Assembly: GCF_000015285.1 (NCBI RefSeq)
Contig: NC_008709.1
Coordinates: forward strand, 2,852,001-2,916,000
Reading direction: 5' to 3'
Source: Psychromonas ingrahamii 37
Lineage (GTDB): Bacteria > Pseudomonadota > Gammaproteobacteria > Enterobacterales > Psychromonadaceae
DNA length: 64,000 bases
Part shown: piece by piece, positions 17,816-59,760 of the stretch
Layout: every line of letters begins with the position of its first letter
How positions within the stretch are numbered: position 1 is the first letter of the stretch
The notes under the pieces: model-generated
What the model saw: the letters and a program-made list of their open reading frames with translations, nothing else
Databases searched by the model: none
What the model was told of the DNA's origin: nothing
Translations under genes and position numbers: made by a program

Positions 17816-17955
17816 GTGTATAAAATATACCCTACCTATAACATAACCCGCAGGGTGCGCTCCGATCACTAATAGAGCATCGAGCTATAACATAAATCGT
17901 AGAATACGCTCTGTGCACCCGTTGCATAAAATGCACCCTACCAATAATATAATGC
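17816..17955. repeat. Degenerate copy of the 65-bp repeat family
   Basis: It contains ATAAAATATACCCTACCTATAA, split as TAAAATATACCCTACC and ATAACATAACCCGCAGGGT, then GCATAAAATGCACCCTACC. These are the same words as the tandem array at 11844-12078. Just before it, 17735-17790 carries TTCATTTATGCGGATTAAAA and ATGCTAGCT, resembling the left part of the element at 9956. The rest of the spacer to the tRNA region has nothing else apparent. Confidence 0.7.
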
Positions 17956-43980: not shown

Positions 43981-44755
43981 ATGTTCAAGTTAATGCTTCA
44001 ATTCATTCAGGTCGCAAAAGCACAAAATGTGACACAAGCTGCCAACAAACTCTGTTTAAGCCAACCTACCTTAAGTCATAACATGAATAAATTAGAGGAA
44101 AAGCTTGAAACCAAGTTATTTAATCGCAACTCTAAAGGGATCACGCTCACGTCAAGTGGGAAACTGCTCTATGAGCAAGCGAAAATGATGCAGCACCTCT
44201 ATCAAAATACCCTCAATAAGCTCGATAAAAATAAGCTCAGGCATCAATACGAACTTAAAATAGGCTGCGGTGACGCTTGGTGGCACCTCTTTATTCGCGA
44301 CTGTGTGCAGAACTTCCAAAATGCTTACCCGCACAGCAATATCACCATCGACGTAGGTGATCATCTGCAGCAATGAGGATATGGCGCACTTTCCCTCGGT
44401 TCATCTAGGGACGTCGAAAAAACGCTTTGCCCATTTGCAGCAGCAAAGCCCTGAAATGAGATCTTTTCTCAAACGCCACTATCTGCATGAAAAGGTGACT
44501 TATAATACCAACTCATTTTTAACAGCGATCGATTTATTACAAAACAGCGACGCGCTTTTACTCTACCCTGCCGGCATGAAAACATATTTTGAAACCTTTG
44601 ATATTGTCCCTCTTCAGATGCAGGAGTGTTTCAGCAAAGCCACCATTGGGGCTTATCTCCATAAAGATGGCCAACAGGATAAGCAAAGCATCAGGTTGTT
44701 GGAGCAGTTTAAAGATCTCATAAAAAATAATCCTTATATCAAAGGGGAGGTGTGA
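43981..44755 (+). pseudogene. LysR-family regulator gene with internal deletion and frame break
   Basis: The N-terminal frame (43981-44376) has a normal LysR helix-turn-helix: TQAANKLCLSQPTLSHNMNK, then LEEKLETKLFNRNSKGITLT. It runs into the effector domain (KIGCGDAWWHLF, NITIDVGDH) and stops at TGA 44374. The C-terminal part continues in another frame (44357-44755: EDMAHFPSVHLGTSKKRF through LLEQFKDLIKN). Together they give about 260 residues against the usual about 300, so some 40 codons are also missing between the halves. It probably no longer works. Its former target is unknown. Confidence 0.8.
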
Positions 44756-44793
44756 TTCAAGTAGTTCAGAAGAGAGCTTAAACTTGGCGCATT

Positions 44794-44875
44794 ATACCAA
44801 TTCCACTTATTAGATGATCTATTTAGGCGCCGGAAAACACATAAAAGTAAGGCATGAATTTAATGGATTTGGTAT
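44794..44875. repeat. MITE-like palindromic element, short copy (82 bp)
   Basis: It starts ATACCAATTCCACTTA and ends TAATGGATTTGGTAT, inverted ends as in the element at 9956-10125. The inside GATCTATTTAGGCGCCGGAA and ACATAAAAGTAAGGCATGAA matches the right part of that copy on the opposite strand. It appears to be an internal-deletion form of the same family. Confidence 0.75.
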
Positions 44876-45027
44876 TACGCTACAGATAGCGGCAAAAAGA
44901 ACACCACATAACGCAAGCTCAACTGGCTGATTAACAATCAGCCAGTGAAACGAGCCGCAACACCTAACTATCTGTTATTATTGAAGGTGTAAAAATCAGT
45001 ATTTTGATTGCTAACGGGAAACAGATA

Positions 45028-46734
45028 TTAAGCCTTGCACAGGCGGTAGATTCTAGCCTCAAAGGGATTTAATACCAGACTATTTTCGGCTCCATGCGTG
45101 GCCACAGAGTAATTACCCAGTAACAGATGTTCACTCTTTGGTAGACAGTCTGGATGCATATATTGTGCAGACAAGCCTGTCAAGTTACACATAATCAGCA
45201 ACTGCTGCTCCCCTAAGGTGCGCGTATAGGCGTAAATCTGCAGATCATTTTCAAGCAATAAATCATAATGACCATAAACCAATACCGGTTCGGCCTTACG
45301 CAGGGCAATCAGCTGGCGATAAAAATTCAGAATAGATCCTTTGTCCAATTCTTGCTGCGCAACATTAATACGTTGATAGTTTGGATTTACCTTGAGCCAA
45401 GGTGTACCGGAACTAAAGCCTGCATTAACTGTGCTATCCCACTGCATAGGCGTGCGCGAATTATCCCTGCCTGTTTGTGCCAACAGATGCAGGATCTCTT
45501 GCTCAGGCATCCCCTCCTTACGCAACTCGGCATACTGATTTTTAGCGCCAACACAATTAAAATCATCAATACTGGCAAACTGGGTATTGGTCATCCCAAT
45601 CTCTTGCCCCTGATAGATAAACGGGGTGCCCTGCATCAGAAAATACATCGTTGCTAAAGAGGTCGCACTTTCAAACCAGTAGTGCTTTGTATCCCCCCAT
45701 TTAGAGACTATTCGCGGGATATCATGGTTCTCCAGAAAGAGGGCATTCCAGCCGATATTCTCCAACCCTTTCTGCCATTTGCTAAAAATCTGTTTTAGCT
45801 TAACCAGATCCAGCTGAGCATCTGGTTTATCTTCCCATAGCTTAAGGTGATCAAACTGGAAAATCATATTTAATCGCTGCTTATCCTCGCCGACCCAGTT
45901 TTTGGATTGACTCACAGAGACGCCATTAGCTTCTCCTACCGTCATAATGTCATAGTGTCTAAAGGTGTTGTCGCACATGCCATCAAGATAGTCGATGATA
46001 CCGCCAACATTCATCATTTTATCCCAGCACGGCACATTTTTGAGTCCCTTCGGATTAGGCATATCTTTAAAGCCTGGCTCCTTTTTCATATGGCTAATGG
46101 CATCGACACGAAAACCGTCTATCCCCTTGTCCAGCCACCAGTTAATCATTTTGTAGATAGCTTCACGCACCGCCTTATTTTCCCAGTTAAGATCCGGCTG
46201 CTTTTTGGAAAACAGGTGCATATAATACTGGTCAGTGCTTTGATCGTACTCCCAGGCCGGTCCCTTGAAGATGCTCTCCCAGTTATTAGGCTCCTTACCA
46301 AAGTTACCATCACGCCAGATATACCAGTCTCGTTTGGGGCTATCCTTAGATGCTTTGGACTCCACAAACCAAGGATGCTCATCGGAGGTATGGTTGACCA
46401 CTAGATCCAAAATCAATCTCATCCCACGCGCATGCACAGCTTCCAACAGACAATCGAAGTCAGCCATACTGCCAAATTCATCCATAATCTCCTGATAGTC
46501 ACTGATGTCATAGCCATTGTCATCATTAGGTGATTTGAACATAGGGCAGATCCAGATAACATCAATGCCAAGGTCTTTAAGATAATCAAGCCGCTCGGTG
46601 ATACCCTTAAGATCACCAATACCGTCACCATTGGAATCCATAAAACTGCGCGGATAAATCTGGTAAACCACCGCTTCTTTCCACCAGTTTTTTGTATAAT
46701 GGCTGTTTGTTACTGTCTTGCTTGTATTTAACAT
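45028..46734 (-). CDS. GH13 alpha-glucosidase (oligo-1,6-glucosidase type), copy 1
   Basis: About 568 residues. The GH13_31 pattern is VVYQIYPRSFMDSNGDGIGD near the start, DLVVNHTSDEHPWF, nucleophile in IDGFRVDAISHM, acid/base in MTVGEANG and the third acid in FLENHDIPRIVSKWG. The QPDLNWEN segment is also typical. Enzymes of this group split isomaltose-like or alpha-1,4 oligosaccharides and are cytoplasmic, with no signal peptide here. I use ATG 46734, and the frame extends to 46764. It is third after the paralogous glucosidase and glucokinase. Confidence 0.92.
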   Translation of the reverse strand: MLNTSKTVTNSHYTKNWWKEAVVYQIYPRSFMDSNGDGIGDLKGITERLDYLKDLGIDVIWICPMFKSPNDDNGYDISDYQEIMDEFGSMADFDCLLEAVHARGMRLILDLVVNHTSDEHPWFVESKASKDSPKRDWYIWRDGNFGKEPNNWESIFKGPAWEYDQSTDQYYMHLFSKKQPDLNWENKAVREAIYKMINWWLDKGIDGFRVDAISHMKKEPGFKDMPNPKGLKNVPCWDKMMNVGGIIDYLDGMCDNTFRHYDIMTVGEANGVSVSQSKNWVGEDKQRLNMIFQFDHLKLWEDKPDAQLDLVKLKQIFSKWQKGLENIGWNALFLENHDIPRIVSKWGDTKHYWFESATSLATMYFLMQGTPFIYQGQEIGMTNTQFASIDDFNCVGAKNQYAELRKEGMPEQEILHLLAQTGRDNSRTPMQWDSTVNAGFSSGTPWLKVNPNYQRINVAQQELDKGSILNFYRQLIALRKAEPVLVYGHYDLLLENDLQIYAYTRTLGEQQLLIMCNLTGLSAQYMHPDCLPKSEHLLLGNYSVATHGAENSLVLNPFEARIYRLCKA

Positions 46735-46893
46735 GGTTATAATCCGATTACTTAATAAGCACAAAAAATAAACTTAGGCTGAGCGGTTATGTTATCGCGG
46801 GGGTGTATCGCACACTCAAATAAGCATTATAAAATAGCCGCCGATAATGAAAAATCATTTTACCGAGAAGTCATCAATTATCTAACAAATCCG

Positions 46894-47859
46894 TTAAAGA
46901 GTGATTCCCAGGGACTGACGCAGATAGGCGCCAGCACCCAGTAAACCCGGCTGCGAATGGGTAATTACGTAAACGGGAATGGCCTCCAGATGTTCTTTAA
47001 AACGCCCTTTGTCTGCAAAAGCCTCGCGGAAACCAGAGGCTTTAAAAAACTCAAGGAAGCGAGGCACTAGGCCACCGGCAATATAAACACCGCCGAAAGT
47101 GCCAAGATTGAGCGCCAGATTACCGGCAAAGCGTCCCATCAATACACAAAAAAGGCTCAGTGCCCGATGGCAATCATGGCACTCTCCAGAAAGCGCGCGA
47201 TCTGAAATCTGCTTGGGCGTTAATATTTCAGGCACCCGATGATCGGAGGTCACTAAACCCTTATAGATATTAACCAGTCCCGGTCCGGAAAGCAGCCTTT
47301 CCGCTGAAACATGCCCCAGCTCGAGCCGCAGCTGCTGAATCAGCGCATCCTCTTGCTCAGTACAACTCGCCATATCCACATGCCCTCCTTCACCCGGTAA
47401 ACTTAACCAGCGATCGCAAGACTGCACCAGATGTGCAACGCCAAGCCCCGTGCCCGCCCCGTAGACAGCAATGGGTTTACCGGAACGGGCTAAACCGCCT
47501 CCCAACTGAACTTTGTCATCAGCACCAAGCACCGGAATCGCCATCGATACCGCAGTAAAATCATTAATAATAGTCAGCTTTTTTAGGCCAAGATTTTCCT
47601 GCATCTGTTTGATTGAAAATGCCCAGCTATGGTTAGTCATCGAGACTTGATCCCCATCAATGGGACAGGCGATGCCAATGCATGCCTGCTCAATACGCAA
47701 CGATTGTTGATCCAGATAGACTCGCACCACAGCCTCCAGAGAGGGATAATCAAGACCTGAATAGGTCAGAGAGTGAGAAATGCTGCCCGTTTCCAGATCA
47801 CATAATGCCAGACGTGCATTAGTGCCGCCCACATCGCCGACCAAACTAACCTGTTTCAT
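46894..47859 (-). CDS. glk: Glucokinase, second paralogue
   Basis: 321 residues with [14 protein letters not shown] (8-21), [22 protein letters not shown] and EGGHVDMAS. It resembles the glk at 18385 throughout but differs at many positions, so it is an old paralogue and not a recent copy. It sits between two alpha-glucosidase genes, which fits phosphorylation of the glucose they release. AAGGAAAATAAG precedes the ATG at 47859. Confidence 0.94.
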
Positions 47860-47905
47860 CTTATTTTCCTTATTAGAAACTTATTATTCATATATCCGGT
47901 ATTCT

Positions 47906-49606
47906 TTAACACGGCTTAATGAGCAGTGCAAAAGACTCATAGGGTGCAAGCGCGAGTGACTCGCTTAACTGCTTACGCGGCGCATAATTGCTAATCAGGC
48001 ATTGCCCTTTCAATCCCTGCAGTGGTTTTGGCAAGGTCAGCTCCAGCGGCTCATTCGTGAAGTTATTAATAACGATAACTTTCTCATTACCTAACTGCCG
48101 CTGGTAGGAAAATACCTTTTTATGCTCAACAAACAATGGCTGATAATCACCATAGACCATTACCTCGTGGGTCTTGCGCAACTGAACCAGTTTTTGGTAG
48201 TGGTAAAAAATGGAATCAGGATCATCCAATGCCGACTCGACATTAATTTCGGTATAATTTGGATTGAGCTTAAGCCAGGGGTTACCATCACTAAAACCGC
48301 TGTTAAGGCTGCTATCCCACTGCATAGGTGTGCGGGCATTGTCACGACCATTTTCATGGATCCCCTGCATCATATCCTCATGCGAGACGCCCGCTGCAAT
48401 ACGCTCCTGATAAAGATTCAGGGTTTCAATATCCTGATAATCCTCAATGGCATCGAAATGCACATTGGTCATGCCTATCTCTTCTCCCTGATAGATATAC
48501 GGTATACCTTTGAGGAAATGCAGCGCAGTCGCCAGCATTTTAGCGGACTGCACGCGGTAGCACCCCGGATCGCCATATTTTGAAACCGCGCGCGGCAGAT
48601 CATGGTTATTCCAGAACAACGAGTTCCAACCACAATCAGCAAGTTCAGTTTGCCACTTGCTGATTACCTGCTTGAACTCCAGCAGATCAAACGGCCGAGG
48701 TTTCCATTTACCTTGCTCGGGATCAAAGGTGATGGTGATATGCTCAAACTGAAACACCATGGAGAGTTCATCGCGGGCCGGATCGGAATACAGCTTGGCA
48801 GTCTCCGGGGTTGCGCTCCACGCTTCACCGACGGTCAGTAAATCGCGCCCACCAAAAGTTGCTTTATTCATCTCTTGCAATAGTGGATGCAGGCGCGGCC
48901 CGTTGGTCATAATCTGCTTATCCACATCCTTGCCAATCAAGTCGATCACATCCATCCGGAAACCACCTATGCCACGGTCTAACCACCAGTTGATCATCTT
49001 ATGCACCTCTTCCTGCACCTTGGGATTATCCCAGTTTAGATCCGGCTGCTTTTTAGAGAACTGGTGGAAATAATATTGCCCCGTAGTACCATCAAACTCC
49101 CAAGCACTGCCGCCAAAATAAGATTTGAAATCATTCGGCGCTGAGCCATCGGCTTTTGGCTCACGCCAAATGTAATAATCGCGATAAAAGTTATCTTTAG
49201 ATTTTCTTGACTCAATAAACCAGGGATGCTCGTCACTGCTGTGGTTGATCACCAGATCCATAATAATACGGATATCACGTTTCGCAGCTTCAGCAATCAG
49301 CTTATTCATTTCCTCTAACGTGCCGAATTCTGAGGCGATATCCTGATAGTCGGAAATATCATAACCGTTATCATCCATCGGAGACTTGAACACCGGCGAT
49401 AACCAGATAACATTAATGCCTAATTGCTTGAGGTAATCAAGTTTACTGATGATCCCCGCCAAATCGCCTATGCCATCATGATTGGCATCCATAAAACTAT
49501 GAGGGTAGATCTGATAAACGACGGCATTATGCCACCATTTTTTATCTGATTCAGGTACTGTGCCAGTCTCATTTTTTTTAGCATCCATTGTCATCACAAT
49601 TGTCAT
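47906..49606 (-). CDS. GH13 alpha-glucosidase (oligo-1,6-glucosidase type), copy 2
   Basis: About 566 residues from ATG 49606, which has AAGGA eight bases upstream. A longer frame to 49669 lacks such a site. GH13_31 features are VVYQIYPHSFMDANHDGIGD, DLVINHSSDEHPWF, nucleophile in IGGFRMDVIDLIGK, acid/base in LTVGEAWSA and the third acid in FWNNHDLPRAVSKYG. It is a paralogue of the enzyme at 45028 with differing substrate-loop residues, so the two probably cover different oligosaccharides. First gene of the glucosidase-glk-glucosidase unit. No transporter gene is adjacent. Confidence 0.92.
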   Translation of the reverse strand: MTIVMTMDAKKNETGTVPESDKKWWHNAVVYQIYPHSFMDANHDGIGDLAGIISKLDYLKQLGINVIWLSPVFKSPMDDNGYDISDYQDIASEFGTLEEMNKLIAEAAKRDIRIIMDLVINHSSDEHPWFIESRKSKDNFYRDYYIWREPKADGSAPNDFKSYFGGSAWEFDGTTGQYYFHQFSKKQPDLNWDNPKVQEEVHKMINWWLDRGIGGFRMDVIDLIGKDVDKQIMTNGPRLHPLLQEMNKATFGGRDLLTVGEAWSATPETAKLYSDPARDELSMVFQFEHITITFDPEQGKWKPRPFDLLEFKQVISKWQTELADCGWNSLFWNNHDLPRAVSKYGDPGCYRVQSAKMLATALHFLKGIPYIYQGEEIGMTNVHFDAIEDYQDIETLNLYQERIAAGVSHEDMMQGIHENGRDNARTPMQWDSSLNSGFSDGNPWLKLNPNYTEINVESALDDPDSIFYHYQKLVQLRKTHEVMVYGDYQPLFVEHKKVFSYQRQLGNEKVIVINNFTNEPLELTLPKPLQGLKGQCLISNYAPRKQLSESLALAPYESFALLIKPC

Positions 49607-50071
49607 CGCTATTGTCCTTGAAAATAACCGTGCAGATTGATCTTGAATAGGCACTATCATAAGCAGCAACTAACATAGACTGAAATGCTATTTTCTCGCA
49701 TCTTTCATAGAAAAAATGCATATCACTCGGAAGAAGTGTGATCTTTGGCAGATTTTTCTGCCTATTATTCGCCTCAAGCTGATTGAAAAATGTGACCTAA
49801 GCTACAGAAAAATTCCCCTCGACTGAGAAACGCGATACAAACGGAGGGAACAAAAAAGGCTGGAGAGCCGAAAAGGCTGGATGGCTAAAAGGCTGGAGAG
49901 TAAATCATTTTTTCTGAGTTGACCAATACGATCAACCGTCGATTGGTGGCTATGTGTAACACTTTTACCACCATAGGGAGCGTCGCCACAAAGAATTGCT
50001 CGGCGAACACAGCTGGTAATTCGTCAAAAAGGTTTGGCTGTCCTTATTTAGCATTTAGCGATGGCCAACGG
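49607..50071. other. Promoter region of the glucosidase unit plus repeat spacer
   Basis: 49607-49850 should hold the promoter of the minus-strand glucosidase operon. At 49853-49900 AAAAGGCTGGA-type words repeat three times (AAAAAAGGCTGGAGAG, AAAAGGCTGGATGG, AAAAGGCTGGAGAG). 49910-50071 follows the DUF3024 stop. It includes TTGGCCATCGCT on the minus strand, which also occurs in the attC-like site near 53130. Confidence 0.5.
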
Positions 50072-50431
50072 TTATGTTGCCGATGACAACTTCCAAAAAC
50101 AACCGTCTTGATCTTCATTAACAATAAATAATGCTTCACTGAGTTTATTAACTTTTGAATTTATTCTATAAACCTGCCATTTTAAGCTACCTCTCATCCA
50201 GGATATTTTCCATATATGAGTTGTCCTAATAAATGTAATTTTTGCAACGGATGAATGAAAGAAACCTTGTTCATTGTGAGTACTAGGATGAATCTCAAAT
50301 AACTCGATACTTTGATTATCAAATATATAACTCAGATCAAAACCATTCTCAGTAGCTTGCCTTCTCCGACTTTCAATAAGGTTAGCGACCAAATGCTCAT
50401 ACTTTTTTCTTTCCGTTTCAGTAAACGCCAT
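50072..50431 (-). CDS. DUF3024 family protein
   Basis: About 119 residues. Family features are IELFEIHPSTH, VAKITFIRTTHIWKISWMRG, LKWQVYRI and the end VNEDQDGCFWKL. DUF3024 proteins have no known function and are frequent in accessory regions of marine bacteria. ATG 50431 or the adjacent ATG 50434 can start it, with AGGTGC just upstream. It is the left-most member of a row of minus-strand accessory genes. Confidence 0.78.
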   Translation of the reverse strand: MAFTETERKKYEHLVANLIESRRRQATENGFDLSYIFDNQSIELFEIHPSTHNEQGFFHSSVAKITFIRTTHIWKISWMRGSLKWQVYRINSKVNKLSEALFIVNEDQDGCFWKLSSAT

Positions 50432-50468
50432 CATGCACCTGTAATAAAAGTTAGAGTAAAAATTCGCC

Positions 50469-50505
50469 GTTACTCGTTCACATACTCGGCGTGGGAACGA
50501 GTAAC
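50469..50505. other. 11-bp perfect inverted repeat upstream of the DUF3024 gene
   Basis: GTTACTCGTTC (50469-50479) is the exact complement of GAACGAGTAAC (50495-50505). It is 35 bases upstream of the DUF3024 start, so it could be an operator or part of a recombination site joint. Confidence 0.5.
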
Positions 50506-50588
50506 GTCTTAATAGCAGGAAAAATTTGGTTGGCTAAAATACGAGTTCAGTCAGATAGCCAGTCGTATTTTTACCTTGTTGATTAACT
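50506..50588 (-). other. Palindromic attC-like site after the 101-residue gene
   Basis: On the minus strand, GTTAATCAACAAGG lies at the start and TTAAGACGTTAC near the end. In between AAAATACGA and TCGTATTTT (50536-50544 and 50563-50571) pair perfectly. The ends AAC and GTT and the imperfect outer pairing resemble an integron attC site. It begins 12 bases past the 101-residue gene. The assignment is inference. Confidence 0.35.
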
Positions 50589-50600
50589 TATCGCTGTCAT

Positions 50601-50906
50601 TTATGAGTAAATACTTTCATTATATTTATTACCCAATTTACTAAATAAGCTAGGCAGTAAATATTGCTCTTTAACTGAGTTGTTATTCTTATTCGCTTCT
50701 CTAGAAATATTTACAAGCAAATTATCTATATCACCCAAAGTTAAAATGATGTTTACTCTTTTAAATTTTGGGCGTTTTTTAAATAATTCAATTTTGATTA
50801 ATTGTAATTTTTTCAATTGAACACTACTTGCAAGTTGATAATCAAAAATTAAATTAAACTCTTCTGCACTTAAAGAAAACTTAAGATCCTGATTATGTTT
50901 ACTCAT
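50601..50906 (-). CDS. Hypothetical protein, accessory region
   Basis: 101 residues, rich in K, N, L and I, predicted mostly helical (FSLSAEEFNLIFDYQLASSVQLKKLQLIKI). No domain is recognised and no signal peptide or membrane segment is visible. ATG 50906 follows AAGGAACT at good spacing. The middle (VNIILTLGDIDNLLVNISRE) is plausible protein sequence, so I treat it as real. It carries a 30-base upstream element shared with the gene at 54442. Confidence 0.55.
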   Translation of the reverse strand: MSKHNQDLKFSLSAEEFNLIFDYQLASSVQLKKLQLIKIELFKKRPKFKRVNIILTLGDIDNLLVNISREANKNNNSVKEQYLLPSLFSKLGNKYNESIYS

Positions 50907-50943
50907 TTGGCATAGTTCCTTACATCTAATATCTTATTAGAAT

Positions 50944-50973
50944 AAATAACTCCGTATTTCTGCAAGAAAGCAC
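50944..50973 (-). promoter_or_regulatory. Shared 30-base element, copy 1
   Basis: 25 of 30 bases match 54791-54820 (AAATAAC-CCGT-TTTC-CAAGAAAGCA on the plus strand), each next to a T-rich run. It lies 38 bases upstream of the 101-residue gene. It could be a cassette promoter or the end of a recombination site. Confidence 0.5.
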
Positions 50974-51071
50974 CCGTTTTTTTAGAAAATCAAAACCCCA
51001 AAAGGTTGTCAATATAAACGATTTCTTTTAAACATTTCATAAAAAAGCTCCAAGCATTTAAACAACTTGAG

Positions 51072-51126
51072 GCTAACAATACAAACGGAAAAGTTTCTGG
51101 CTATCCTGCTTTTTTTTATTGTTAGC
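51072..51126 (-). other. attC-like site directly after the NACHT gene
   Basis: The ends are perfect 10-base inverted repeats: on the minus strand GCTAACAATA and TATTGTTAGC, 55 bases in total. It starts 5 bases after the NACHT stop. GCTAAC and GTTAGC at the edges resemble attC core sites, although the strict RYYYAAC/GTTRRRY pattern is not fully met. A terminator is an alternative reading. Confidence 0.4.
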
Positions 51127-51131
51127 TAAAT

Positions 51132-52919
51132 TTAGAAAGGCAATATCTCATCTGTGGCAAGATCTGATTTATTAAGTTCAAATTCCATTTCTAGCACCTC
51201 AGATTTAAATTTACTAAGTTCGAATTTTTCCGACAAATACTTACTAGCATCTTTTTGAATTTTACACAGCCTCATAAGCTTGTCGATTTCAATTGTAAAA
51301 TATCCATTGAACTGTTGAAAATTAGTATAATCAGATTCATCACAATAAGATAAAAGATTCGCAATCATTAGTTTATTATTAGCTAAGAATTGCAATATAT
51401 TTTTTTTAGCAAAATCAGAATACTCTACATATAAAACTGATGATAATGTATCACCCCAATATATCTCTTTGATTTCTCCTGATTCATCTACACACACTTT
51501 TGAATCACCCCCTATTAATTTAAGCAATGAAAGATAATTGATATTTACTATTGATTTACTATTTAAGCAAAGAGCCTTTTTCTTATACGGAATTGAAAAA
51601 TATTTTGTATAGTTTCGTTCATCTATAGTTTCTAAAAATGATAATGTATTTTGCCATTTTCTAAATTCATCAAAATCGGTTATGACTAAATTGTAAAAAC
51701 TTTTTTTTCTACTTTCAGGCAATCGAAAAATAAAGACGGAAGCAAAATATTCTTGAATACTTTTATGAGTAAATGAGAAATAATTAAATCCATCTCGGAT
51801 TATCAATGCAGTTATGCTAGTAATATCATCAATAAGAAGATCTTCAATATTCTCAGGTAATCTTTCAAGTTTTGCTGCTCTTTCGAGATAACCTTGAAAT
51901 TGCAATACAGGAAACCGAGTGTTGTTATCATGAAGAGATAAAAAACTGATTGAATCAAATAAACGCTGCATCTGATAATCAGTTAGCCCTGCTTTTCTTT
52001 CTCGCTCAAAACCGATCTTCATTCTGTCATGGCGATAAAGCATAGTAGGGAATATTAGGCTGTAAAATTCAGCTAGACTATCTGGTTTGAACTGACGCGT
52101 ATTATATGTGATTGTAAATAATGTGAGTAACAGTGGAGTGGTTGTAATTTCTGAAATAAAACTACTATTAGATAATATATTATTTATACTTTCTGATTGT
52201 CTATCCGCCTTATATAGATGCTTCACAAAATCTTGTTGTGTTACTAATGTCATGGGACTAATCTTTTTTTTAGAAAAATAAAATGATGAGCCCATACCAG
52301 AATCAGGTCTAGATGATATAACTACTCGTAGTTTTGGATACGTGCGAACTATTGTTTCGAGTTCTCGTGCAACTCTTTTTCTTTCATTATTAGGAACTTC
52401 ATCAAATCCATCTAAGAGTAATAGTATTTTTTCTGATTTAGCTAGAAAGTCAAAAAGAGTATTGTCTAATTTGACACCTAAATCTTCTATAGCATCCATT
52501 ATTTCCTCTTTAAGCTTATTTTTATACCTGAGATTCCTAAACTCAATAAAAATAGGAATATAAGAATTCCCAGTACCTTCTTTTAAACACAGTTTTCTCA
52601 GATATAAAGATTTACCTTGTCCTGGCCCTCCCTCAACTAAAACTTGTTTATCGCCAAATTGACTAAATGATTCTATATATTCATCATTAAATAAAACTGC
52701 CTGATCAAAAAATATATCAGTTAAATGTACGATAGAATCAGGATGTAATATTGTTTTTACTTGACCTATACGAGCAACATTATCTTTAAAATATTGAAGT
52801 TTATTAATTGCAAAAGCTTCAGAAATCTTCTCTTTAACTTTTCCTGTTGCAGACTTAACCAAGTCATCGACTAAGCCATCAAGTCCACCCGTTGCTTTTT
52901 TAATAATATCATCGAGCAT
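51132..52919 (-). CDS. NACHT-domain STAND NTPase (candidate bacterial NLR-like defence protein)
   Basis: 595 residues. The N-terminal about 90 residues are helical with an amphipathic start (MLDDIIKKATGGLDGLVDDL). The NACHT core has Walker A GGPGQGKS (97-104), Walker B LLLLDGFDEV (166-175) with the extra acidic residue typical of NACHT, sensor VVISSRP (199-205) and the winged-helix mark TTPLLLTLF (260-268). YFSFTHKSIQEYFAS near 390 is also usual. The C-terminal about 190 residues match nothing I know. No nuclease or TIR domain is visible. NACHT proteins of this size protect against phage in other bacteria, and that role is inferred here. Confidence 0.85.
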   Translation of the reverse strand: MLDDIIKKATGGLDGLVDDLVKSATGKVKEKISEAFAINKLQYFKDNVARIGQVKTILHPDSIVHLTDIFFDQAVLFNDEYIESFSQFGDKQVLVEGGPGQGKSLYLRKLCLKEGTGNSYIPIFIEFRNLRYKNKLKEEIMDAIEDLGVKLDNTLFDFLAKSEKILLLLDGFDEVPNNERKRVARELETIVRTYPKLRVVISSRPDSGMGSSFYFSKKKISPMTLVTQQDFVKHLYKADRQSESINNILSNSSFISEITTTPLLLTLFTITYNTRQFKPDSLAEFYSLIFPTMLYRHDRMKIGFERERKAGLTDYQMQRLFDSISFLSLHDNNTRFPVLQFQGYLERAAKLERLPENIEDLLIDDITSITALIIRDGFNYFSFTHKSIQEYFASVFIFRLPESRKKSFYNLVITDFDEFRKWQNTLSFLETIDERNYTKYFSIPYKKKALCLNSKSIVNINYLSLLKLIGGDSKVCVDESGEIKEIYWGDTLSSVLYVEYSDFAKKNILQFLANNKLMIANLLSYCDESDYTNFQQFNGYFTIEIDKLMRLCKIQKDASKYLSEKFELSKFKSEVLEMEFELNKSDLATDEILPF

Positions 52920-53080
52920 GAGACTCTCCGTATTAGGTGAATGATGTAGTTTGCATAACGAGGCTACATAATTTCTATTTTTTCAGAAAGAACACATTTT
53001 CCATAAACTTAATAACCTTTTAAATCAATAAGTTAAATATTTTAAATGTTTATAAAAAGTGGGTTATTTTCTACAGCCTC

Positions 53081-53146
53081 AACGCCTTATTAAGCAGAAA
53101 ATAATGGTTGCCGTATAATCACACAGCGATGGCCAAATGTTATTTG
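53081..53146 (-). other. Right part of an attC-like site split by the IS3-family element
   Basis: Minus-strand order: the first part is 54447-54422 (GTATAACAAGCCCTTTAAAA then GGACAA), then the insertion, then this part (AATAACATTTGGCCATCGCT ... GGCAACCATTATTTTCTGC and TTAATAAGGCGTT). Rejoined, the about 94-base sequence is an imperfect palindrome. AACAAGCCCTTTAAAA pairs with TTAATAAGGCGTT, and AATAACATTTGGCC pairs with GGCAACCATTATT. The layout and the TATAACAA start resemble attC sites of Vibrio-type superintegrons. Confidence 0.5.
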
Positions 53147-53179
53147 TGATCCTCCCCCAATAAAAGGGACACATTTTTT

Positions 53180-54066
53180 TCACGCTGCTATTGCTTCATA
53201 TTCTATCGGTGAGCAATAATTTATTCCAGAGTGCATTCTTCTCGCATTGTAATATTTGTTAATGTACCCGCCAAGTGTTGCACGTAACTGAGCATCACTT
53301 TTAAAAACATTACCACGAATAACTTCTGTTTTCATTGAATGAAAAATGACACCATGTGGGCATTATCCGTACATTTTCCTGCACGGCTCAAACTATGTAC
53401 TATCCCATTTTTTTTCAATGCTCTTTGATAAACTTGACCGCGATATTCAACACCTCTATCAGTATGTAGCATGAGCTTCTCTTGCGGTTTTCTCTTTTTA
53501 ATGGCATTCAGCAAAGTACGTTTTGTCACATCCATGGTTCTATTTTTATCTAAACCCCAACTAATAATACGTCGAGAATACAAATCCATTATCACCGACA
53601 AATAACGCCACACTCCTTTTACTTTTAAGTAAGTCACGTCCGCAACCCATACTTTATTGACAGCATCAGGTACTCCGCCATCTTGGCGTAAGTTTTCTCC
53701 TGTAACGAGAAAGCGTTTATACGCCGCCGAACGTGTTGTCACGCGCATCACTCTAGCGATCAGGCCAAGTGCAAGATACAAACGCTCAACGCGCTTCTTA
53801 CCTAGGTTGTACCCTTGCTTTTGTAAGGCCTTAAATATGCGAGGACTTCCGTAGCGCCCTTTATTCTCAGTGAATATTTGCTGAATCTTTACCTTTAATT
53901 CATCATCCTCAATTGAACGTTCACTTGGCTGACGCTTTCTCCAATCGTAATAACCGCTTCTCGATACACCAAGTAGTTCGATTAAAGCTGTAACACTTAT
54001 TTCTGCTCTGAGTTTTTCGATGAATCGATATCGTCCTGATGTTCCTCGGCAAGAAACCGTTGCCAC
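53180..54066 (-). pseudogene. IS3-family transposase orfB, frameshifted and active-site mutated
   Basis: Typical orfB: VSRSGYYDWRKRQPSERS, GRYGSPRIFKALQKQGY, VWVADVTYLKVKGVWRYLSV (first catalytic D) and MLHTDRGVEYRGQVY (second D). Where the third catalytic residue should be (DNAHMESFF) the sequence reads DNAHMVSFF, so Glu became Val. One C is missing right after, near 53352, giving a premature stop. The true C-terminus continues in the other frame as SMKTEVIRGNVFKSD to EYEAIAA and ends at 53180. Confidence 0.88.
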
Positions 54067-54367
54067 TTTTTTAGGACGTACAGCTCCTCCTTAAGCTTTT
54101 TATTTTCACGCTCGAGTTGTTGTTCTCTGGTAAGTTGCTTTGTTACTTTGTTACCTTCGATTGATCCGCTACTTTTTTACGTTTATCAGCCACAATAATT
54201 CCTTCACGATATTCTTTTCTCCATCGTGACAGCATAAATGGGTGGATGTCGAGATTTTCTGCAACACTTTTAATAGTGACACCCACAACAAAACTGAGTT
54301 GTACTGCATTAACTTTAAACTCATTTGAATACTTCCAAGTTCGCCTTGGATTGTTGTACTTTGGCAT
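53997..54367 (-). pseudogene. IS3-family orfA, frameshifted by an 8-base duplication
   Basis: It starts at ATG 54367 (MPKYNNPRRTWKYSNEFKVN) with GAGGTG upstream, and has the helix-turn-helix SVAENLDIHPFMLSRWRKEY. After DQSKVTK it hits TAA because GTAACAAA is present twice in a row near 54143-54150. Without one copy the frame would continue as QLTREQQLERENKKLKEELY through SSKNSEQK to 53997, a normal leucine-zipper orfA end. Confidence 0.85.
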
Positions 54368-54421
54368 AAGACACCTCATCTTTAATTAGATTTTGGTGTC
54401 CGTTAAAGCGGGGGAAGATCA

Positions 54422-54447
54422 TTGTCCTTTTAAAGGGCTTGTTATAC
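54422..54447 (-). other. Left part of the split attC-like site
   Basis: The minus strand begins GTATAACAAGCCCTTTAAAA and runs to the IS edge. The TAA stop of the gene at 54442 lies inside TATAACAA, the arrangement found in integron cassettes where the stop overlaps attC. See the entry at 53081. Confidence 0.5.
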
Positions 54448-54747
54448 AACGACTTCCATTTTAGACGATCTTTCTTCTATTTCAGCTAGCGATAACTTAC
54501 CATGCCTTTTGAATGTTTCTTTTGTTGCTACAGAGGCATTTGATGGTTTATTAATACCTGCTACTGATTTATAATTTGAAACTTTAGCACTAATATTTCC
54601 AGCGTCTAATTTAGTTTTCAACGCCATGTTTTTGCAATATTCTATCTGTTTATTTCTAGGAAACCCTTCTAATTCTAACTTTTTAAATATTGCTAAAGAT
54701 CGTAATTCATTTAGCTCATTCCATTCTGAATTGTCTCGAAATGACAT
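54442..54747 (-). CDS. Hypothetical protein, accessory region
   Basis: About 101 residues from ATG 54747, which has GGAGGT five bases upstream. An extension to 54780 lacks this. The protein is hydrophilic and basic (NEWNELRSL-like start, then FPRNKQIEYCKNMALKTKLD) with no recognised domain. The central part could be a short helical DNA- or RNA-binding region, but I cannot name a family. Its stop codon overlaps the attC-like site. It shares the 30-base upstream element with the gene at 50601. Confidence 0.6.
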   Translation of the reverse strand: MSFRDNSEWNELNELRSLAIFKKLELEGFPRNKQIEYCKNMALKTKLDAGNISAKVSNYKSVAGINKPSNASVATKETFKRHGKLSLAEIEERSSKMEVVV

Positions 54748-54790
54748 TGCAACCTCCAAAATTAAAAAAGTGTATAGCATCTTTCAAAAG

Positions 54791-54820
54791 AAATAACCCC
54801 GTGTTTCCACAAGAAAGCAT
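54791..54820 (-). promoter_or_regulatory. Shared 30-base element, copy 2
   Basis: It matches 50944-50973 at 25 of 30 positions and lies 44 bases upstream of the gene at 54442, almost the same distance as copy 1 from its gene. Confidence 0.5.
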
Positions 54821-55065
54821 CTTATTTTTTTGATTATTACTTGTTAATACTGCACTTTAAATACTTTTAATTCAATGCGATAAATTAAAATGTAAATAAA
54901 TTATCTTGGTGACAGGCGGAATTATTCCGTATTTACGCTGAAAACACTGAATCAAAATATCACCTAATCAATCTGTAGACGAATTTTCAGTAGACAGCTG
55001 ACAGCAGGAACAATTATTAGCATCACTGCGCCTTGTCGTTTTACCGAGTTAAAGCAGCGGAAATT

Positions 55066-55168
55066 GGTGCGCGGAGCCCACCCTACGGACTGTTCTGTTA
55101 TCTGTAGGGTGCATTTTATGCACCGCAAGCAACGGTAACCAGTGCGCAAAGCGCGCACTCTGCGGGCT
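55066..55168. repeat. Inverted relative of the 65-bp repeat family
   Basis: It contains CTGTAGGGTGCATTTTATGC then ACCGCAAGC, the reverse complement of GCTTGCGGTGCATAAAATGC then ACCCTAC found at 11974. AGTGCGCAAAGCGCGCACTC follows. A single copy here. Confidence 0.75.
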
Positions 55169-55303
55169 AATTTAGATGAAAATAAACGAGCAATACTGCT
55201 CAAGTACCCGTCAAAAATAAACACTGAATTTTAATTGAAATTTTCGATGAGGTTGCATAAGGCTGGAGTGTATAAGTCAGGGCATATTTTTTAAATCATG
55301 CCT

Positions 55304-55337
55304 TAAAAAAAACCTCAATACAGGGTTGAGGTTTTTT
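55304..55337 (-). terminator. Terminator of the DUF2999 gene
   Basis: AAAACCTCAA and TTGAGGTTTT form a 10-bp stem around TACAGGG, followed on the minus strand by a run of eight T, 16 bases after the stop. Confidence 0.9.
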
Positions 55338-55352
55338 AGTTTTTATAAGCCG

Positions 55353-55610
55353 TTATTTAGTTTCTTGCAGTTTAGCTGTTGCAGCTTCTAATTTTGAAAA
55401 ATCTAAATTTAATTCTTCAATGGCTTGTGTGAGTAAATCCGGGTTGGTCATCACTGTCATCAGCAGCGGTTGCAGTTTATCTTGAGGAATACCTAAGGTT
55501 TGAATGATAGTCATTGCAGCTAATGGATTTTCCGTTAAAGCTTCAAATACTTCCGTGATTTTCTCATCAGTTACGTTGTGATCTTTTAGGGTTTCAATAA
55601 TTGGGTTCAT
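55353..55610 (-). CDS. DUF2999 family protein
   Basis: 85 residues: MNPIIETLKDHNVTDEKITE then FEALTENPLAAMTIIQTLGI and LDFSKLEAATAKLQ. This all-helical pattern is that of DUF2999, a small protein common in Vibrio, Shewanella and relatives with no assigned function. It has its own terminator, and AGAGAAAAAC before the ATG at 55610. It appears monocistronic. Confidence 0.82.
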   Translation of the reverse strand: MNPIIETLKDHNVTDEKITEVFEALTENPLAAMTIIQTLGIPQDKLQPLLMTVMTNPDLLTQAIEELNLDFSKLEAATAKLQETK

Positions 55611-56044
55611 CAGTTTTTCTCTTTAATAGGAATTCGCGACAATTTATCTTATTCTCACACTAATTGCGATATTATCTCATATTATAATTTGCTTCACGGC
55701 AGTCAGGAAAGATTCTAAAATAGCCGTATTTGATCTGCGCTTAGTTGTAAGTTTGGTTAAGGCTGAATCTAAAATGCAATTTAGAGTGTTAAATAACCGT
55801 TAAGCCCACCAAAAAAGTAACAAACACTGTTATCTTTCGAAAAATGAGTCCTATCAATAAGTACATATAGTCTAAATGACTGAGCAGCACGGGTGATGGT
55901 TCTGATCGGGAAAAAATAATTGACTGCAGTAACGCTAAAGCAGTGTCTGGTTTTATTAAAATACTGGGCTTTATTAGCCTAGGATAAAATGGGTATATAA
56001 GCTCAGCACAAATGCGTAGAATGTACCTTATATTACTTTAAGCA
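55611..56044. other. Intergenic region upstream of hflX
   Basis: A divergent spacer holding the promoters of DUF2999 (left) and hflX (right). No gene or repeat is recognised. Confidence 0.45.
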
Positions 56045-57388
56045 ATGAGCAGCAATATGACGATTCCAACAACAGAAAAATCAGTCACCCGCGCCCTATT
56101 AATTTCTATTCGCACACCTGATGTCAGCCTGCAGGAAGTGGAGGAATCATTAGCTGAATTAAGCCGTTTAGTGAGCACCTTAGGTTTTTCTGTGGTAGCG
56201 ACTAAAACGCAGCGACAAAGATCGACCAAACAGCTGTCAGTATTGGGCTCCGGAAAACTGGAAGAATTAGCCGAATTAACCAGTGAGTCTGAAGATCAAT
56301 CGCAGTTAGACTTTAACCCGGATGAATTAAGCGCATTAATAGCCGCAGGCGACATTCAGGAACAGGCAAATGTGGCGGTCTTTGATTGCGAACTGAGCCC
56401 CAATCAAATACGCCATGTTGAAGCGGCATTAGGGGTAGAGGTTTACGATCGTACCCGCGTGATTATTGAAATCTTTAGTAAACACGCACGGACCCGCACC
56501 GCTAAACTACAGGTAGAAATAGCGCGACTTAATTACTTAACACCCAGATTACGTGATGAAAACAGTGGCGATCGCGAACGTCAAAAAGGCAGTTGGATAG
56601 GTGAAAGTGCCTTTGAAATTAACAGTCGCCGTATTCGCGATAAAATAGCCGATCTAAAACGTGAGATAAAAAAACTGCAGGAAGAGATGCAGGGCAGGCG
56701 CAGTAGTCGTGTCGAGCAATTGTGTGTGGCGTTAGTGGGTTATACCAATGCCGGAAAATCATCTTTAATGCGCGCCCTGACGGACTCGGAAGTGTTAGTT
56801 GAAGATAAATTATTTGCCACCTTAGATACCACAGTACGTACCCTGCAGCCGCCAACACAGCCGCGAATTTTAATATCAGACACCGTGGGTTTTATCAAAA
56901 AGCTGCCCCATGATTTAGTGGCCTCATTTCATTCAACTCTGGAAGAAGCAAAAGATGCGGATTTATTGCTTTATGTGGTCGATGCCTCGGATGAAAACTT
57001 CACGGCTCAATTAGCCGTTGTTGATCATGTATTAGCAGAGTTAAATGTCGATGCCAGCAACAGACTATTATTACTGAATAAGGTCGATTGTATCAGTGAA
57101 GAGCGCCAATTAGCGCTGCTAGAGCAATACCCCGATGCGCTGCAAATTAGTGCGCGCAATAAAGGTGATGTCGCCCTGGTACATCAGGAAATTCAAGATT
57201 TTCTGGAAAAGAAAATGTGCCCCGCCTGTTTTCATATTCCCTACACTGCCAGTGGGGTGATGGGCGAAATTCACAGTAAAATGCAGGTAACAGATGAGCA
57301 ATATCATGAAGATGGTATGCGTATAACCCTAAAAGCGACCCCGGTTGCCTTGGAGCGACTGCATAAAATGCTGCAAAGCTCTTTTTAA
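56045..57388 (+). CDS. hflX: Ribosome-associated GTPase HflX
   Basis: 447 residues. The N-terminal HflX domain includes SVLGSGKLEELAEL and VFDCELSPNQIRHVEAAL. The linker has GERQxGSWIGESAFE-like GDRERQKGSWIGESAFE. The G domain has G1 VGYTNAGKSSLMRAL, G3 SDTVGFIKKLPHDLVASFHS and G4 LLNKVD. HflX splits or rescues stalled ribosomes, notably under heat or antibiotic stress. It is not next to hfq or miaA here, unlike in E. coli. A strong terminator follows. Confidence 0.94.
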   Translation: MSSNMTIPTTEKSVTRALLISIRTPDVSLQEVEESLAELSRLVSTLGFSVVATKTQRQRSTKQLSVLGSGKLEELAELTSESEDQSQLDFNPDELSALIAAGDIQEQANVAVFDCELSPNQIRHVEAALGVEVYDRTRVIIEIFSKHARTRTAKLQVEIARLNYLTPRLRDENSGDRERQKGSWIGESAFEINSRRIRDKIADLKREIKKLQEEMQGRRSSRVEQLCVALVGYTNAGKSSLMRALTDSEVLVEDKLFATLDTTVRTLQPPTQPRILISDTVGFIKKLPHDLVASFHSTLEEAKDADLLLYVVDASDENFTAQLAVVDHVLAELNVDASNRLLLLNKVDCISEERQLALLEQYPDALQISARNKGDVALVHQEIQDFLEKKMCPACFHIPYTASGVMGEIHSKMQVTDEQYHEDGMRITLKATPVALERLHKMLQSSF

Positions 57389-57399
57389 GACTAAGTTAC

Positions 57400-57439
57400 A
57401 GCCTAAACCACCAGCTAAATCAGGTGGTTTAGGCTTTAT
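57400..57439 (+). terminator. hflX terminator
   Basis: AGCCTAAACCACC and GGTGGTTTAGGCT form a 13-bp perfect stem followed by TTATAAA, 12 bases after the stop. Confidence 0.88.
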
Positions 57440-57450
57440 AAACTCAAGTA

Positions 57451-57480
57451 AAAAAACGGGTCAAAAGACCCGTATTTTTA
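57451..57480. terminator. Bidirectional terminator between hflX and the exb remnant
   Basis: ACGGGTC-AAAA-GACCCGT with an A-run before and a T-rich run after. It can serve both strands. Confidence 0.85.
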
Positions 57481-57566
57481 GCCTGATAAAAATCACTCAT
57501 GTGATGCCGCAATAAATTACCGCTTAATATTTACCCCTTAACATTCACCCCTTAACATTGATCACT

Positions 57567-57806
57567 TTAATAATCACTTCGGTAAAGCGTGTCTTCGGTT
57601 ATATCGTCAATGCTTGATGTGCCTATCATCGCCATGGTGACTTCCAGCTCTTCTCGAAGTACCCGCAGCATATGGGCAACCCCTAAAGCACCAGCCACTG
57701 CCAGCGCATAAAGCTGCGGCCTGCCGACCATTACGGTATTTGGGCCCAGAGCAAGCGCTTTATAAATATCGGTACTACGCTCAATCGCACCATCGGCAAT
57801 AAATAA
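57567..57806 (-). pseudogene. C-terminal remnant of an FMN-dependent alpha-hydroxy-acid (lactate) dehydrogenase
   Basis: LFIADGAIERSTDIYKALAL, then GPNTVMVGRPQLYALAVAGA and LGVAHMLRVLREELEVTMAM, is the distal FMN/phosphate-binding part of LldD-like enzymes. Only about 80 of about 380 residues remain. It is fused in frame to the end of an ExbD remnant (LRISLITQK), so a deletion joined two unrelated genes. Confidence 0.85.
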
Positions 57807-57818
57807 TAGGGTAATCAT

Positions 57819-58226
57819 TTTTTGTGTAATCAAAGAGATACGCAGTAATCCGGCCACCTTAATACTGCGCAGTGTGGTTTGCAGTTGCGCAACATCAAGC
57901 TGCACATCCACTTTAACCTGCACAGTGAGCTTTGCGGATCGCCTGCTTGTGTTACCATCAGTCGCAATTGTTCACTAAGATCCGGCGTTACGATTAACTT
58001 TCCATTGAGATATAAAATGCCGTTTTCTGTGACCAGCAACTTGGCAATATTTTTTTCTGCAAAACTTGCTCACTAATGGAATCAGGCGAATCAATTTTCT
58101 GCGGATTCGAACGCTGAATTTGCCCAGCCACCATAAAAAAATAAGCAACAGAAACACTACGTTGATCAGCGGGATCAGATTTTCATCGCTTGCAGGTGGC
58201 CGCTTAGCCATTTCGGGTATTAACAT
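57819..58226 (-). pseudogene. exbD (second copy), frameshifted
   Basis: It begins MLIPEMAKRPPASDENLIPL then INVVFLLLIF, the N-terminal membrane segment and conserved aspartate region of ExbD. A missing T then shifts the frame. The correct sequence continues as MVAGQIQRSNPQKIDSPDSI, and later LLVTENGILYLNGKLIVTPD in another frame, and VQVKVDVQLDVAQLQTTLRS after a second shift. At least two frameshifts are present. Confidence 0.82.
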
Positions 58227-58230
58227 CAGT

Positions 58231-58622
58231 CTATAACTCCCGCAAGCGAGAACTGTCTGGCACCCCTTTTTTTTTAAAGTTATCAAGTAGCGTAAATAAT
58301 GCCTGCGTGCTTACCTGCTGTTCAACTTCCAGTGCAAAACAGCCTGAGGATTATTTGCAATCAGCTAAGCCAGGGCGTTTAAGTTAGTCACTTTTTAGCG
58401 CTTAGCATTAACGCTAAATTCATTACCATCACGGTGTAAGATCACTCGAAAAAGCTCATTAGACGCTTGCTGTGATGCTGCGCTGGCAGGTAATCGAATA
58501 GCCTGCCATTTGGCAAAATTCGATGACAGCATACAAAACAGCAGCAGAATAAAGACCACATCAATAAAAGGAGTCAGGCTAATCGCTTGTTTGCGTTTTG
58601 GCAGATTCAGATCAAGTAGCAT
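58231..58622 (-). pseudogene. exbD (first copy), frameshifted
   Basis: N-terminal 75 codons are intact: LNLPKRKQAISLTPFIDVVF with the conserved D, then LLLFCMLSSNF. After NAKR a stop occurs. The usual C-terminal part is still readable in another frame as CFALEVEQQVSTQALFTLLD then NFKKKGVPDSSRLREL to TAG at 58231. ATG 58622 overlaps the exbB end by 11 bases. Confidence 0.82.
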
Positions 58623-59286
58623 TTTGCAGCACTTGATCTTGATTGATACTGAGTAGTTCTGCGGTTTGCTGAGTAAACACCCGGGTTACATAGCTGTTCA
58701 TGCTATTGCTTATCCGCTCAACTTTTCTGTCCAGCAAGTGATAGGCCGCCACAACAGGGATAGCGACCGCAAGCCCCACCACAGTGGTCAGCAGTGCTTG
58801 CCAAATCTCCCCCGATAAAATGGAAGGATCGACCTGATTACCCGCGGCTTCCATTTTCTGAAACGCACTTATCATACCCAGCACAGTGCCCATCAATCCC
58901 AGCAAAGGACTGAGGTTGGCAATCACCTCAAGGGGACGCAGCAGCATGCAAAACTGGTTGATTTTATCCGTCGCCTGACAACTTAACGCCTGCTTTAACA
59001 GCGTCAATGACTGCTGCTCGCGCATCCCTGCCATGGCATCTTGAACCAGCATCGACACCGGACGACGAGTCTTTAAACTGCTTTGTGCTTTGCTTAACGG
59101 CCCCTGCTGCCAGTAACTGAGTGCCAGCTCGACATCTTTAATATTTTCAGCCTGCAGAGGAAAAAACAGCCATAACTTAATAAGAACAATACTTAGGGCC
59201 AACATGGAAAACACCCATAGGATCCACACAACTGGCCCGCCTATTTTAAGCAGATTCAGAAGCGGATCAAGCATATCCAAAAGCAT
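58612..59286 (-). CDS. exbB: ExbB/TolQ-type proton channel protein
   Basis: 224 residues with three membrane segments: VVWILWVFSMLALSIVLIKL, NLSPLLGLMGTVLGMISAFQ and ALLTTVVGLAVAIPVVAAYH. The last two carry the conserved LGLxGTVxGM and TxxGLxxAIP marks. ExbB works with ExbD and TonB to drive outer-membrane iron uptake. The frame is intact from ATG 59286. A longer N-terminal part seems cut off by a frameshift (59287-59585). With both exbD copies broken, it probably has no local partner. Confidence 0.85.
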   Translation of the reverse strand: MLLDMLDPLLNLLKIGGPVVWILWVFSMLALSIVLIKLWLFFPLQAENIKDVELALSYWQQGPLSKAQSSLKTRRPVSMLVQDAMAGMREQQSLTLLKQALSCQATDKINQFCMLLRPLEVIANLSPLLGLMGTVLGMISAFQKMEAAGNQVDPSILSGEIWQALLTTVVGLAVAIPVVAAYHLLDRKVERISNSMNSYVTRVFTQQTAELLSINQDQVLQNAT

Positions 59287-59585
59287 GCTGCTATCAACAT
59301 TGCCAAGCGCAGCTGAAGCCTGCAGTCCATCGACAGAGTTTAATGTGGAGAATGTGTGGAGAAAGTGTCCGTCATTGCAGTATTGCTTTGATCAACAAGG
59401 GATTTTAAATCAACCGAGCCTGAACCATCGGTGAGTGTTTGCTCCGCTCCTCTCGGTGAATCAGAAACATTACTAATAGTCGCTTTCTCAACACTGCTCT
59501 CTGGACTTCTTTCTGCAGTGTTATCTGTAGTGTTATTTGAAAAAACGTTGCTGGATTCACTCGATGACATAACTGCGTCAGACAA
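59287..59585 (-). pseudogene. N-terminal extension of exbB, separated by an 11-base duplication
   Basis: A TTG start at 59585 follows GGAGGT. The frame reads MSDAVMSSSESSNVFSNNTT to SNTAMTDTFSTHSPH and stops at 59340. CATTCTCCACA is duplicated just before the stop. Removing one copy gives TFSTLNSVDGLQASAALGNV, then DSSMLLDMLDPL, which joins the exbB frame. This suggests a formerly longer ExbB with a serine-rich lead. Confidence 0.6.
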
Positions 59586-59716
59586 AATTTAACCTCCATA
59601 AATAAAGAAAATGTAAACGAAAATTTTGCTACTTTAACCATGCGGCACAGCAGAAAAGTCCAATGCGTAACAGAACCATCTTTGTAATTAATGCTCGGAT
59701 AGAAAGCAGTGTAGAT

Positions 59717-59760
59717 AATAATGAAAATCATTCGTAAGTGCAGATAATTATCATTTGTAT
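59717..59760 (-). promoter_or_regulatory. Fur box pair upstream of the exb locus
   Basis: AATAATGAAAATCATTCGT matches the 19-base Fur consensus at 14 positions. GATAATTATCATTTG just to its right is a second partial match. This is the expected iron control of exb genes. It lies about 130 bases upstream of the TTG start. Confidence 0.7.

Follow-up and report, generated by a model that had tools for sequence, protein, structure and literature searches.

The window studied here, 64,000 nucleotides of Psychromonas ingrahamii 37 (contig NC_008709.1, positions 2,852,001 to 2,916,000 of the forward strand), holds a gene for a 595-residue protein. A reading of the letters without database searches, the sequence-only reading, had proposed it as a candidate antiphage protein, a NACHT NTPase of the STAND class (signal transduction ATPases with numerous domains). 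We find its open reading frame (ORF) to be real and intact, with an ATG start, and place it on the minus strand, which that reading had not named; the plus strand is full of stops in the same frame. The gene lies in DNA of 30% GC, compared with 41.9% for the window, which bears out the AT-rich setting seen earlier, and genes carrying integron attC sites flank it on both sides in the same orientation. In animals and plants, NLR-like receptors (nucleotide-binding, leucine-rich repeat) play a central part in immunity; bacteria have them too. We consider it probable that the gene encodes an NLR-related anti-phage switch that travels as integron cassette cargo.

The NACHT-SNaCT11 protein

The motifs that had suggested a NACHT protein are all located in the translation: Walker A GGPGQGKS at residues 97–104, Walker B LLLLDGFDEV at 166–175, TTPLLL at 260–265 and FSFTHKSIQEYF at 381–392. 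Pfam recognizes a NACHT domain at residues 92–223 (E 1.1e-13) and fills the C-terminus, formerly called unassigned, with SNaCT11, the "Short NACHT-associated C-Terminal domain, family 11", at residues 432–595 (E 1.4e-86, 289.3 bits against a cut-off of 27). All other Pfam matches at E up to 1 are two P-loop families and one sub-threshold poxvirus family. At this threshold Pfam agrees with the earlier reading that there is no nuclease, TIR or protease domain, and it finds no leucine-rich repeat (LRR) family, the C-terminus being SNaCT11, so that the protein is not an NLR in the strict sense. Pfam likewise gives no DNA-binding domain, and NCBIfam has no family for the protein.

In an alignment of 24 sequences, the window copy included, G97, G100, G102, K103, D170–E174 and H385 are invariant. 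Replacement changes relative to three near copies (homologue loci L008, L016 and L010) are few (nonsynonymous substitutions per site, dN, 0.141–0.183) while silent sites are near saturation, and we thus regard NACHT-SNaCT11 as a conserved gene and not a chance ORF. The C-terminus is the most variable region, with a mean pairwise identity of 0.405 compared with 0.63–0.64 in residues 92–404; this pattern fits the earlier suggestion that the sensor lies there and makes SNaCT11 the likely sensor domain.

The nearest solved folds of the predicted structure are NLRC4, NLRP3 and NOD2, with the last 90 residues barely covered by the fold search. By sequence, a single-protein query of solved structures returned weak NLRP9 matches alone (E 0.11), and a profile query returned NLRC4 at E 1.8e-14. 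The Pfam NACHT domain and the NLRC4-like predicted fold together uphold the assignment to NLR-like STAND proteins. Compared with animal NLRs, above all NLRC4, the predicted fold is similar at 16% identity, whereas SNaCT11 takes the place of the LRR and there is no CARD match.

The N-terminus had been described as about 90 amphipathic helical residues and cast as an effector possibly acting on membranes. Helices are indeed predicted (2–9, 13–23, 26–35 and 38–50), yet they span about 50 residues, of which 1–11 have a predicted local distance difference test (pLDDT) value below 50. The hydrophobic moment of residues 1–18 is 0.52, not the protein's highest (0.64, at residue 180), and hydrophobicity over 19 residues peaks at 254, within the NACHT module. 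Residues 1–90 alone, searched against Protein Data Bank sequences, matched unrelated proteins at best (E 0.12), without a discernible effector. Neither a family nor a membrane span speaks for the proposed effector role.

Comparison with published relatives argues for a defence role. bNACHT proteins that carry SNaCT domains give E. coli protection against phage, and relatives act on both DNA and RNA phages; within clade 14, every protein has SNaCT domains, none a readily discernible effector, and phage protection is documented for members (PMC12169576, excerpted text). As in the window protein, clade-14 bNACHT02, 11 and 12 combine a NACHT module with a short C-terminal SNaCT and no recognizable effector, and bNACHT11 and bNACHT12, unlike bNACHT25, do not need DnaJ against T4 (same excerpts). 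The window protein differs in that its SNaCT is of family 11 and that integron cassettes or PM2-like phage elements serve as vehicles; it is likened to clade 14 by domain make-up. By family, modelled fold and analogy, the gene encodes a bacterial relative of animal NLR receptors, very probably an anti-phage protein, and the original proposal of a candidate antiphage gene thus gains support as probable. A NACHT protein of a Klebsiella plasmid, WP_015632533.1, is 30% identical in the NACHT part (448 alignment columns), but has another C-terminal domain with no SNaCT11 match; it may be bNACHT01 itself.

Homologues as integron cassettes

At locus L142 (genome G440), an integrase gene (TIGR02249, 423 bits) and the NACHT gene point away from each other on either side of a 280-bp gap, and the NACHT gene is followed by attC (E 3.8e-16), a 95-residue ORF and the defence candidate PDC-S06. 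By this gene order, the L142 copy is a first-position integron cassette with its own attC; attI would, from its expected position, lie in the gap.

Shared DNA blocks between copies point the same way. In three of 13 pairs (L142–L008, L142–L009 and L008–L009) the block starts at the crossover GTTAGG; that of L142–L009 extends to the end of attC at 87% identity and the other two end in the first attC box, while in the remaining compared pairs the block starts nearer the gene or ends earlier. The block shared by the window and L008 runs from just 5' of the start codon to the box CTAACAA. This box stands directly after the stop codon in 6 of 14 copies (window, L008, L010, L012, L013 and L142) but in none of 18 control NACHT genes, namely those of 81 other NACHT-relative loci whose gene end was worked out. 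L010 has canonical attC boxes on both sides (9842–9970 and 11793–11864).

Scanning for a simple attC motif recovered the canonical L010 sites, missed most degenerate ones and gave chance matches too. We therefore built a covariance model, R1, from six attC sites, one from the own genome (none from the window), four from L009 and one from L013; three of the six flank NACHT copies. R1 places attC within 120 bp of the gene in 4 of 13 loci, where random placement expects 0.18 (P 5e-5), and still in 2 of 11 (P 0.003) once the two loci that lent sites are left out. The L012 site scores E 0.0038; L009 also has attC directly after the gene, but lent sites to the model. No R1 match at E up to 1 occurs in the 81 other NACHT-relative loci, a rough control given that the hosts differ.

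The locus in the Psychromonas ingrahamii genome

The genome has a full integron integrase (TIGR02249, 447.6 bits against a cut-off of 265) at C1:1711251, next to a first cassette and to an attC that ends GGCGTTGAGGCTGTAG. R1 detects no fewer than 20 attC sites at E up to 0.01, mostly single and scattered round the chromosome, with two beside the integrase. Of the 24 genus genomes, 23 have R1 matches at E up to 0.001, up to 83 in one; the genome searches scored 150 candidates per genome, and attC counts are thus lower bounds. Dispersed cassettes seem usual in the genus. A second integron integrase is represented by a C-terminal fragment at C1:3060582–3060845 (110 bits).

Table 1. Features around the NACHT-SNaCT11 gene (positions in the window)
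Feature	Position	Strand	Remarks
Possible left anchor of variable interval	49887..50051	none	71.5% over 165 nt to sister genome G012
DUF3024 protein	50072..50434	minus	120 residues; PADLOC candidate defence family PDC-S43, E 8.9e-34; DUF3024 E 1.3e-25
Complete attC	50499..50597	minus	directly 3' of 101-residue ORF; R1 39.9 bits, E 7e-7; found again in whole-genome search
101-residue ORF	50601..50906	minus	no Pfam or PADLOC match; possibly same cassette as NACHT gene
attC-like relic	51071..51127	minus	boxes AGCTAAC and GTTAGCC, 57 nt, directly after NACHT stop
NACHT-SNaCT11 gene	51132..52919	minus	595 residues; NACHT 92–223, SNaCT11 432–595
3' half of IS-split attC	53078..53146	minus	ends GGCGTTGAGGCTGTAG, like attC beside own-genome integrase
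IS element	53147..54421	minus	1275 bp; 3-bp target duplication TTG; two ORFs
5' half of upstream cassette's attC, IS-split	54425..54446	minus	scored with IS excised
112-residue ORF, upstream cassette's gene	54442..54780	minus	no Pfam or PADLOC match
Possible right anchor of variable interval	54998..55060	none	92% over 63 nt to sister genome G012

The attC sites of the two flanking genes (Table 1) are one complete site, with the next-best R1 match in the window at E 0.29, and one split by an insertion sequence (IS). With the IS removed in script, the split site (53078–54446) scores 37.1 bits, the best of 2000 shuffles reaching 10.4, under a profile made without window sequence. The IS was considered as carrier of the NACHT gene and rejected, since it interrupts an attC and is flanked by a 3-bp duplication of its own; it is a later insertion into that site. 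Of the earlier reading of an accessory setting beside an IS, the IS and the mobile setting thus hold, whereas the IS came later and the integron setting had been missed. We take the IS to be IS3-type by its two ORFs and their domain make-up. Its transposase frame orfB (53332–54066) runs into a stop close to the end, the usual ending being taken up in the next frame.

In the relic directly downstream of the NACHT gene, CTAACAA lies as far from the stop as it does in homologues, and similarity to L008 ends in that box.

Several observations weigh against the cassette reading, or against a working defence gene. The relic has no attC profile match, leaving the window copy with no recognizable attC of its own; its cassette would therefore have decayed or be shared with the 101-residue ORF. 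Promoter-like sites in the region are not in excess (23, with 21.3 expected from shuffles). Among the homologues, L008 and L010 have attC boxes alone and no R1 match, L011 and L016 have R1 matches more than 1.5 kb from the gene, and five of 14 copies (L014, L015, L017, L144 and that of the PM2-like elements described below) show no attC sign, so that the cassette is not the sole vehicle. The copies of L009 (frame change near the end) and L011 (split, 213 + 373 residues) are broken, and no PADLOC family matches the NACHT-SNaCT11 protein at E up to 1. Some 3.5 kb from the broken L011 copy, an AbiGi gene stands cassette-like between two attC-like matches (5424–6894; E 0.0038 and 0.027).

Two alternatives arise from these observations. 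The protein may be able to act while the window copy is an unexpressed, decaying cassette, far from the integron promoter and with its upstream attC split by the IS. The window copy, at C1:2903135, is indeed distant from the integrase, and the missing downstream attC match and the lack of promoter excess fit this view; yet the reading frame is intact and conserved relative to its relatives, and certain cassettes inside arrays are known to be expressed (review PMC12409362, excerpted text). We judge silence the less likely case. The NACHT gene might also form a two-gene cassette and one system with the 101-residue ORF, for example receptor and partner: the two share a strand, a gap of 225 nt lies between them, and the one complete attC follows the second. 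This we judge improbable, since in L008, L010, L012, L013 and L142 the NACHT gene stands alone directly before an attC box and so travels alone elsewhere, and since the 101-residue ORF has no family.

Further searches of the region gave no direct repeats of at least 25 nt in 49600–55300 and no Rfam match at gathering scores in 44000–60000. Terminator-like hairpins are in excess in 49800–55400 (9, with 3.0 expected from shuffles), at least one of them within the split attC. A repeat at 55061–55214 recurs at 11843–12029, at 17920–17947 and several times in locus L133 of sister genome G012, and at 43981–44755 a gene that looks LysR-like by eye is broken up into two frames that overlap.

Distribution and descent

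The 4.56-Mb own genome holds a single copy of the gene. No other among the 24 genus genomes has the full protein, and just one more shows a match to the NACHT part, at 27%. In a scan of named genomes, for which the best 80 of 148 relatives were kept, the first ten (L008–L017) cover residues 1–593 or more at 38–79% identity. Their source records are a Nitrospinaceae metagenome-assembled genome (MAG), with the copy on a 15-kb contig of unsure host assignment, Colwellia, Marinomonas, Ferrimonas, a Methylococcaceae MAG, Oleispira, Methylomonas, Nitrosomonas, Shewanella and Mariprofundus. SNaCT11 is found in 2 of 398 genomes of the phylum, 4 of 394 of the order (one being L016 again) and 1 of 369 of the class; all three counts include the own genome. 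In a plasmid collection, none of 181 records covers 80% of the protein.

In the tree, the Methylococcaceae copy joins Oleispira (100/99) and the Shewanella copy joins G440, a genome of another family (100/100), in contradiction to host taxonomy; the nearest partner of the window copy is not settled, three of the nine inner branches are left open, and two long branches come together. The GC content of the gene (30–36%) is lower than that of its surroundings (36–58%) in 11 of 11 homologue loci measured. Because of this low GC and the conflict of tree and taxonomy, we conclude that the gene, as judged from its sequences, moves between unrelated hosts. The copies examined stand in differing surroundings and not in one conserved operon, let alone solely in housekeeping contexts, although the flanking genes of the L010 and L014 copies look ordinary by eye. 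A housekeeping function as a STAND regulator, for instance as a transcription switch like MalT, is hardly credible in view of the lack of a DNA-binding domain, the rarity of the full protein in the genus and of SNaCT11 in the order, and the lower GC.

A second vehicle: PM2-like phage elements

Two Vibrio cyclitrophicus phage records (PQ189336 and PQ189349; order Vinavirales, with PM2-like capsid annotation) hold a 55%-identical full-length copy, annotated NLR_like_bNACHT01 by the depositors. It has the domains of the window protein, but, unlike the cassette copies, is the second-last gene of a 14.8-kb PM2-like element and has no attC; the two records are probably prophages. The viral contig L088 carries the same PM2-like element followed by more phage-like genes, and in G647 (L144) the NACHT gene is 92% DNA-identical to the phage copies in a different setting. 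A scan of viral sequences with the single protein gave no copies; with the alignment as query it gave 12 loci, of which one spans the full length. In Vibrio-type genomes (L088 and L144), ORFs beside the gene look filamentous-phage-like by eye (Zot-like ATPase, secretin); the single such ORF checked (L144:15179–16672) has no NCBIfam match.

A resident element would gain by excluding rivals, and the copies in PM2-like records could therefore speak for defence against other invaders (plasmids, satellites or other prophages) or for policing of the own element, instead of defence against lytic phages. Since the relatives studied act on phages with DNA as well as with RNA genomes (PMC12169576, excerpted text), such a role has, in our estimate, only a small chance of being right, and we keep to defence against phages.

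Defence genes near the copies

A survey of the surroundings of homologues revealed defence families near several copies. PADLOC matched 10 of 21 neighbour or anchor-interval proteins, picked by eye and hence not amenable to an enrichment test. Neighbours include a HEC-01 pair in L008 (4.7e-226 and 4.2e-88), AbiGi in L011 (9.2e-47), PDC-S06 in L142 (6.8e-174), PDC-S31 in L144 (8.7e-38) and a weak PDC-M14B match in L009 (13054); a neighbour in L015 has a PrimPol domain. The 11 without a PADLOC match are L009 12050 and 13834, L010 9274, L016 9204, window 54442 and 50601, L128 262, L142 11672, and L144 6607, 11189 and 12727. In sister genome G012, a Septu pair, PtuA and PtuB (L133 4665–6840; 8.8e-127 and 1.4e-77), is flanked by two short stretches matching the two possible anchors of Table 1. 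By these anchors of 165 and 63 nt, the Septu pair and the window's NACHT cassettes likely occupy the same site.

Putative mechanism and implications

Based on the published clade-14 relatives and the NLRC4-like predicted fold, we propose that the resting protein would adopt a closed, ADP-bound, NLRC4-like state. SNaCT11 may sense a phage product or a cell process disturbed by the phage, upon which exchange for ATP would open the NACHT module and the opened proteins would assemble. The clustered N-terminal four-helix regions (residues 2–50) might then arrest the infected cell, directly or via a recruited partner. The gene would spread by excision and insertion of its cassette through integron integrases, with PM2-like Vibrio phage elements as an additional ride.

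Integron-borne anti-phage cassettes have reportedly been described in Vibrio and in mobile integrons (Darracq 2025, Kieffer 2025, Getz 2025). Integrons store anti-phage genes as small defence cargo in cassettes (review PMC12409362, section 16, excerpted text); the window setting resembles these, but with mostly scattered sites and not one large array. In the main text of that review, "NACHT" occurs 0 times, and section 16 mentions no NACHT- or NLR-type cassette. The link between SNaCT11 NACHT proteins and integrons was not found in the literature searched, to which the two main integron-defence papers did not belong, and may be in print elsewhere.

More tentatively, SNaCT11 NACHT proteins could be complete one-gene receptors of the NLR type that integrons keep in store, reshuffle and turn on by bringing them next to the integrase promoter, in the first cassette position, the L142 copy being armed and the window copy dispersed and stored. 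If a whole receptor indeed travels as one cassette, bacteria would bank and swap NLR-type immunity much like antibiotic resistance genes, and the SNaCT11 family would offer natural one-gene constructs for probing the function of the unassigned N-terminal region in the SNaCT clade.
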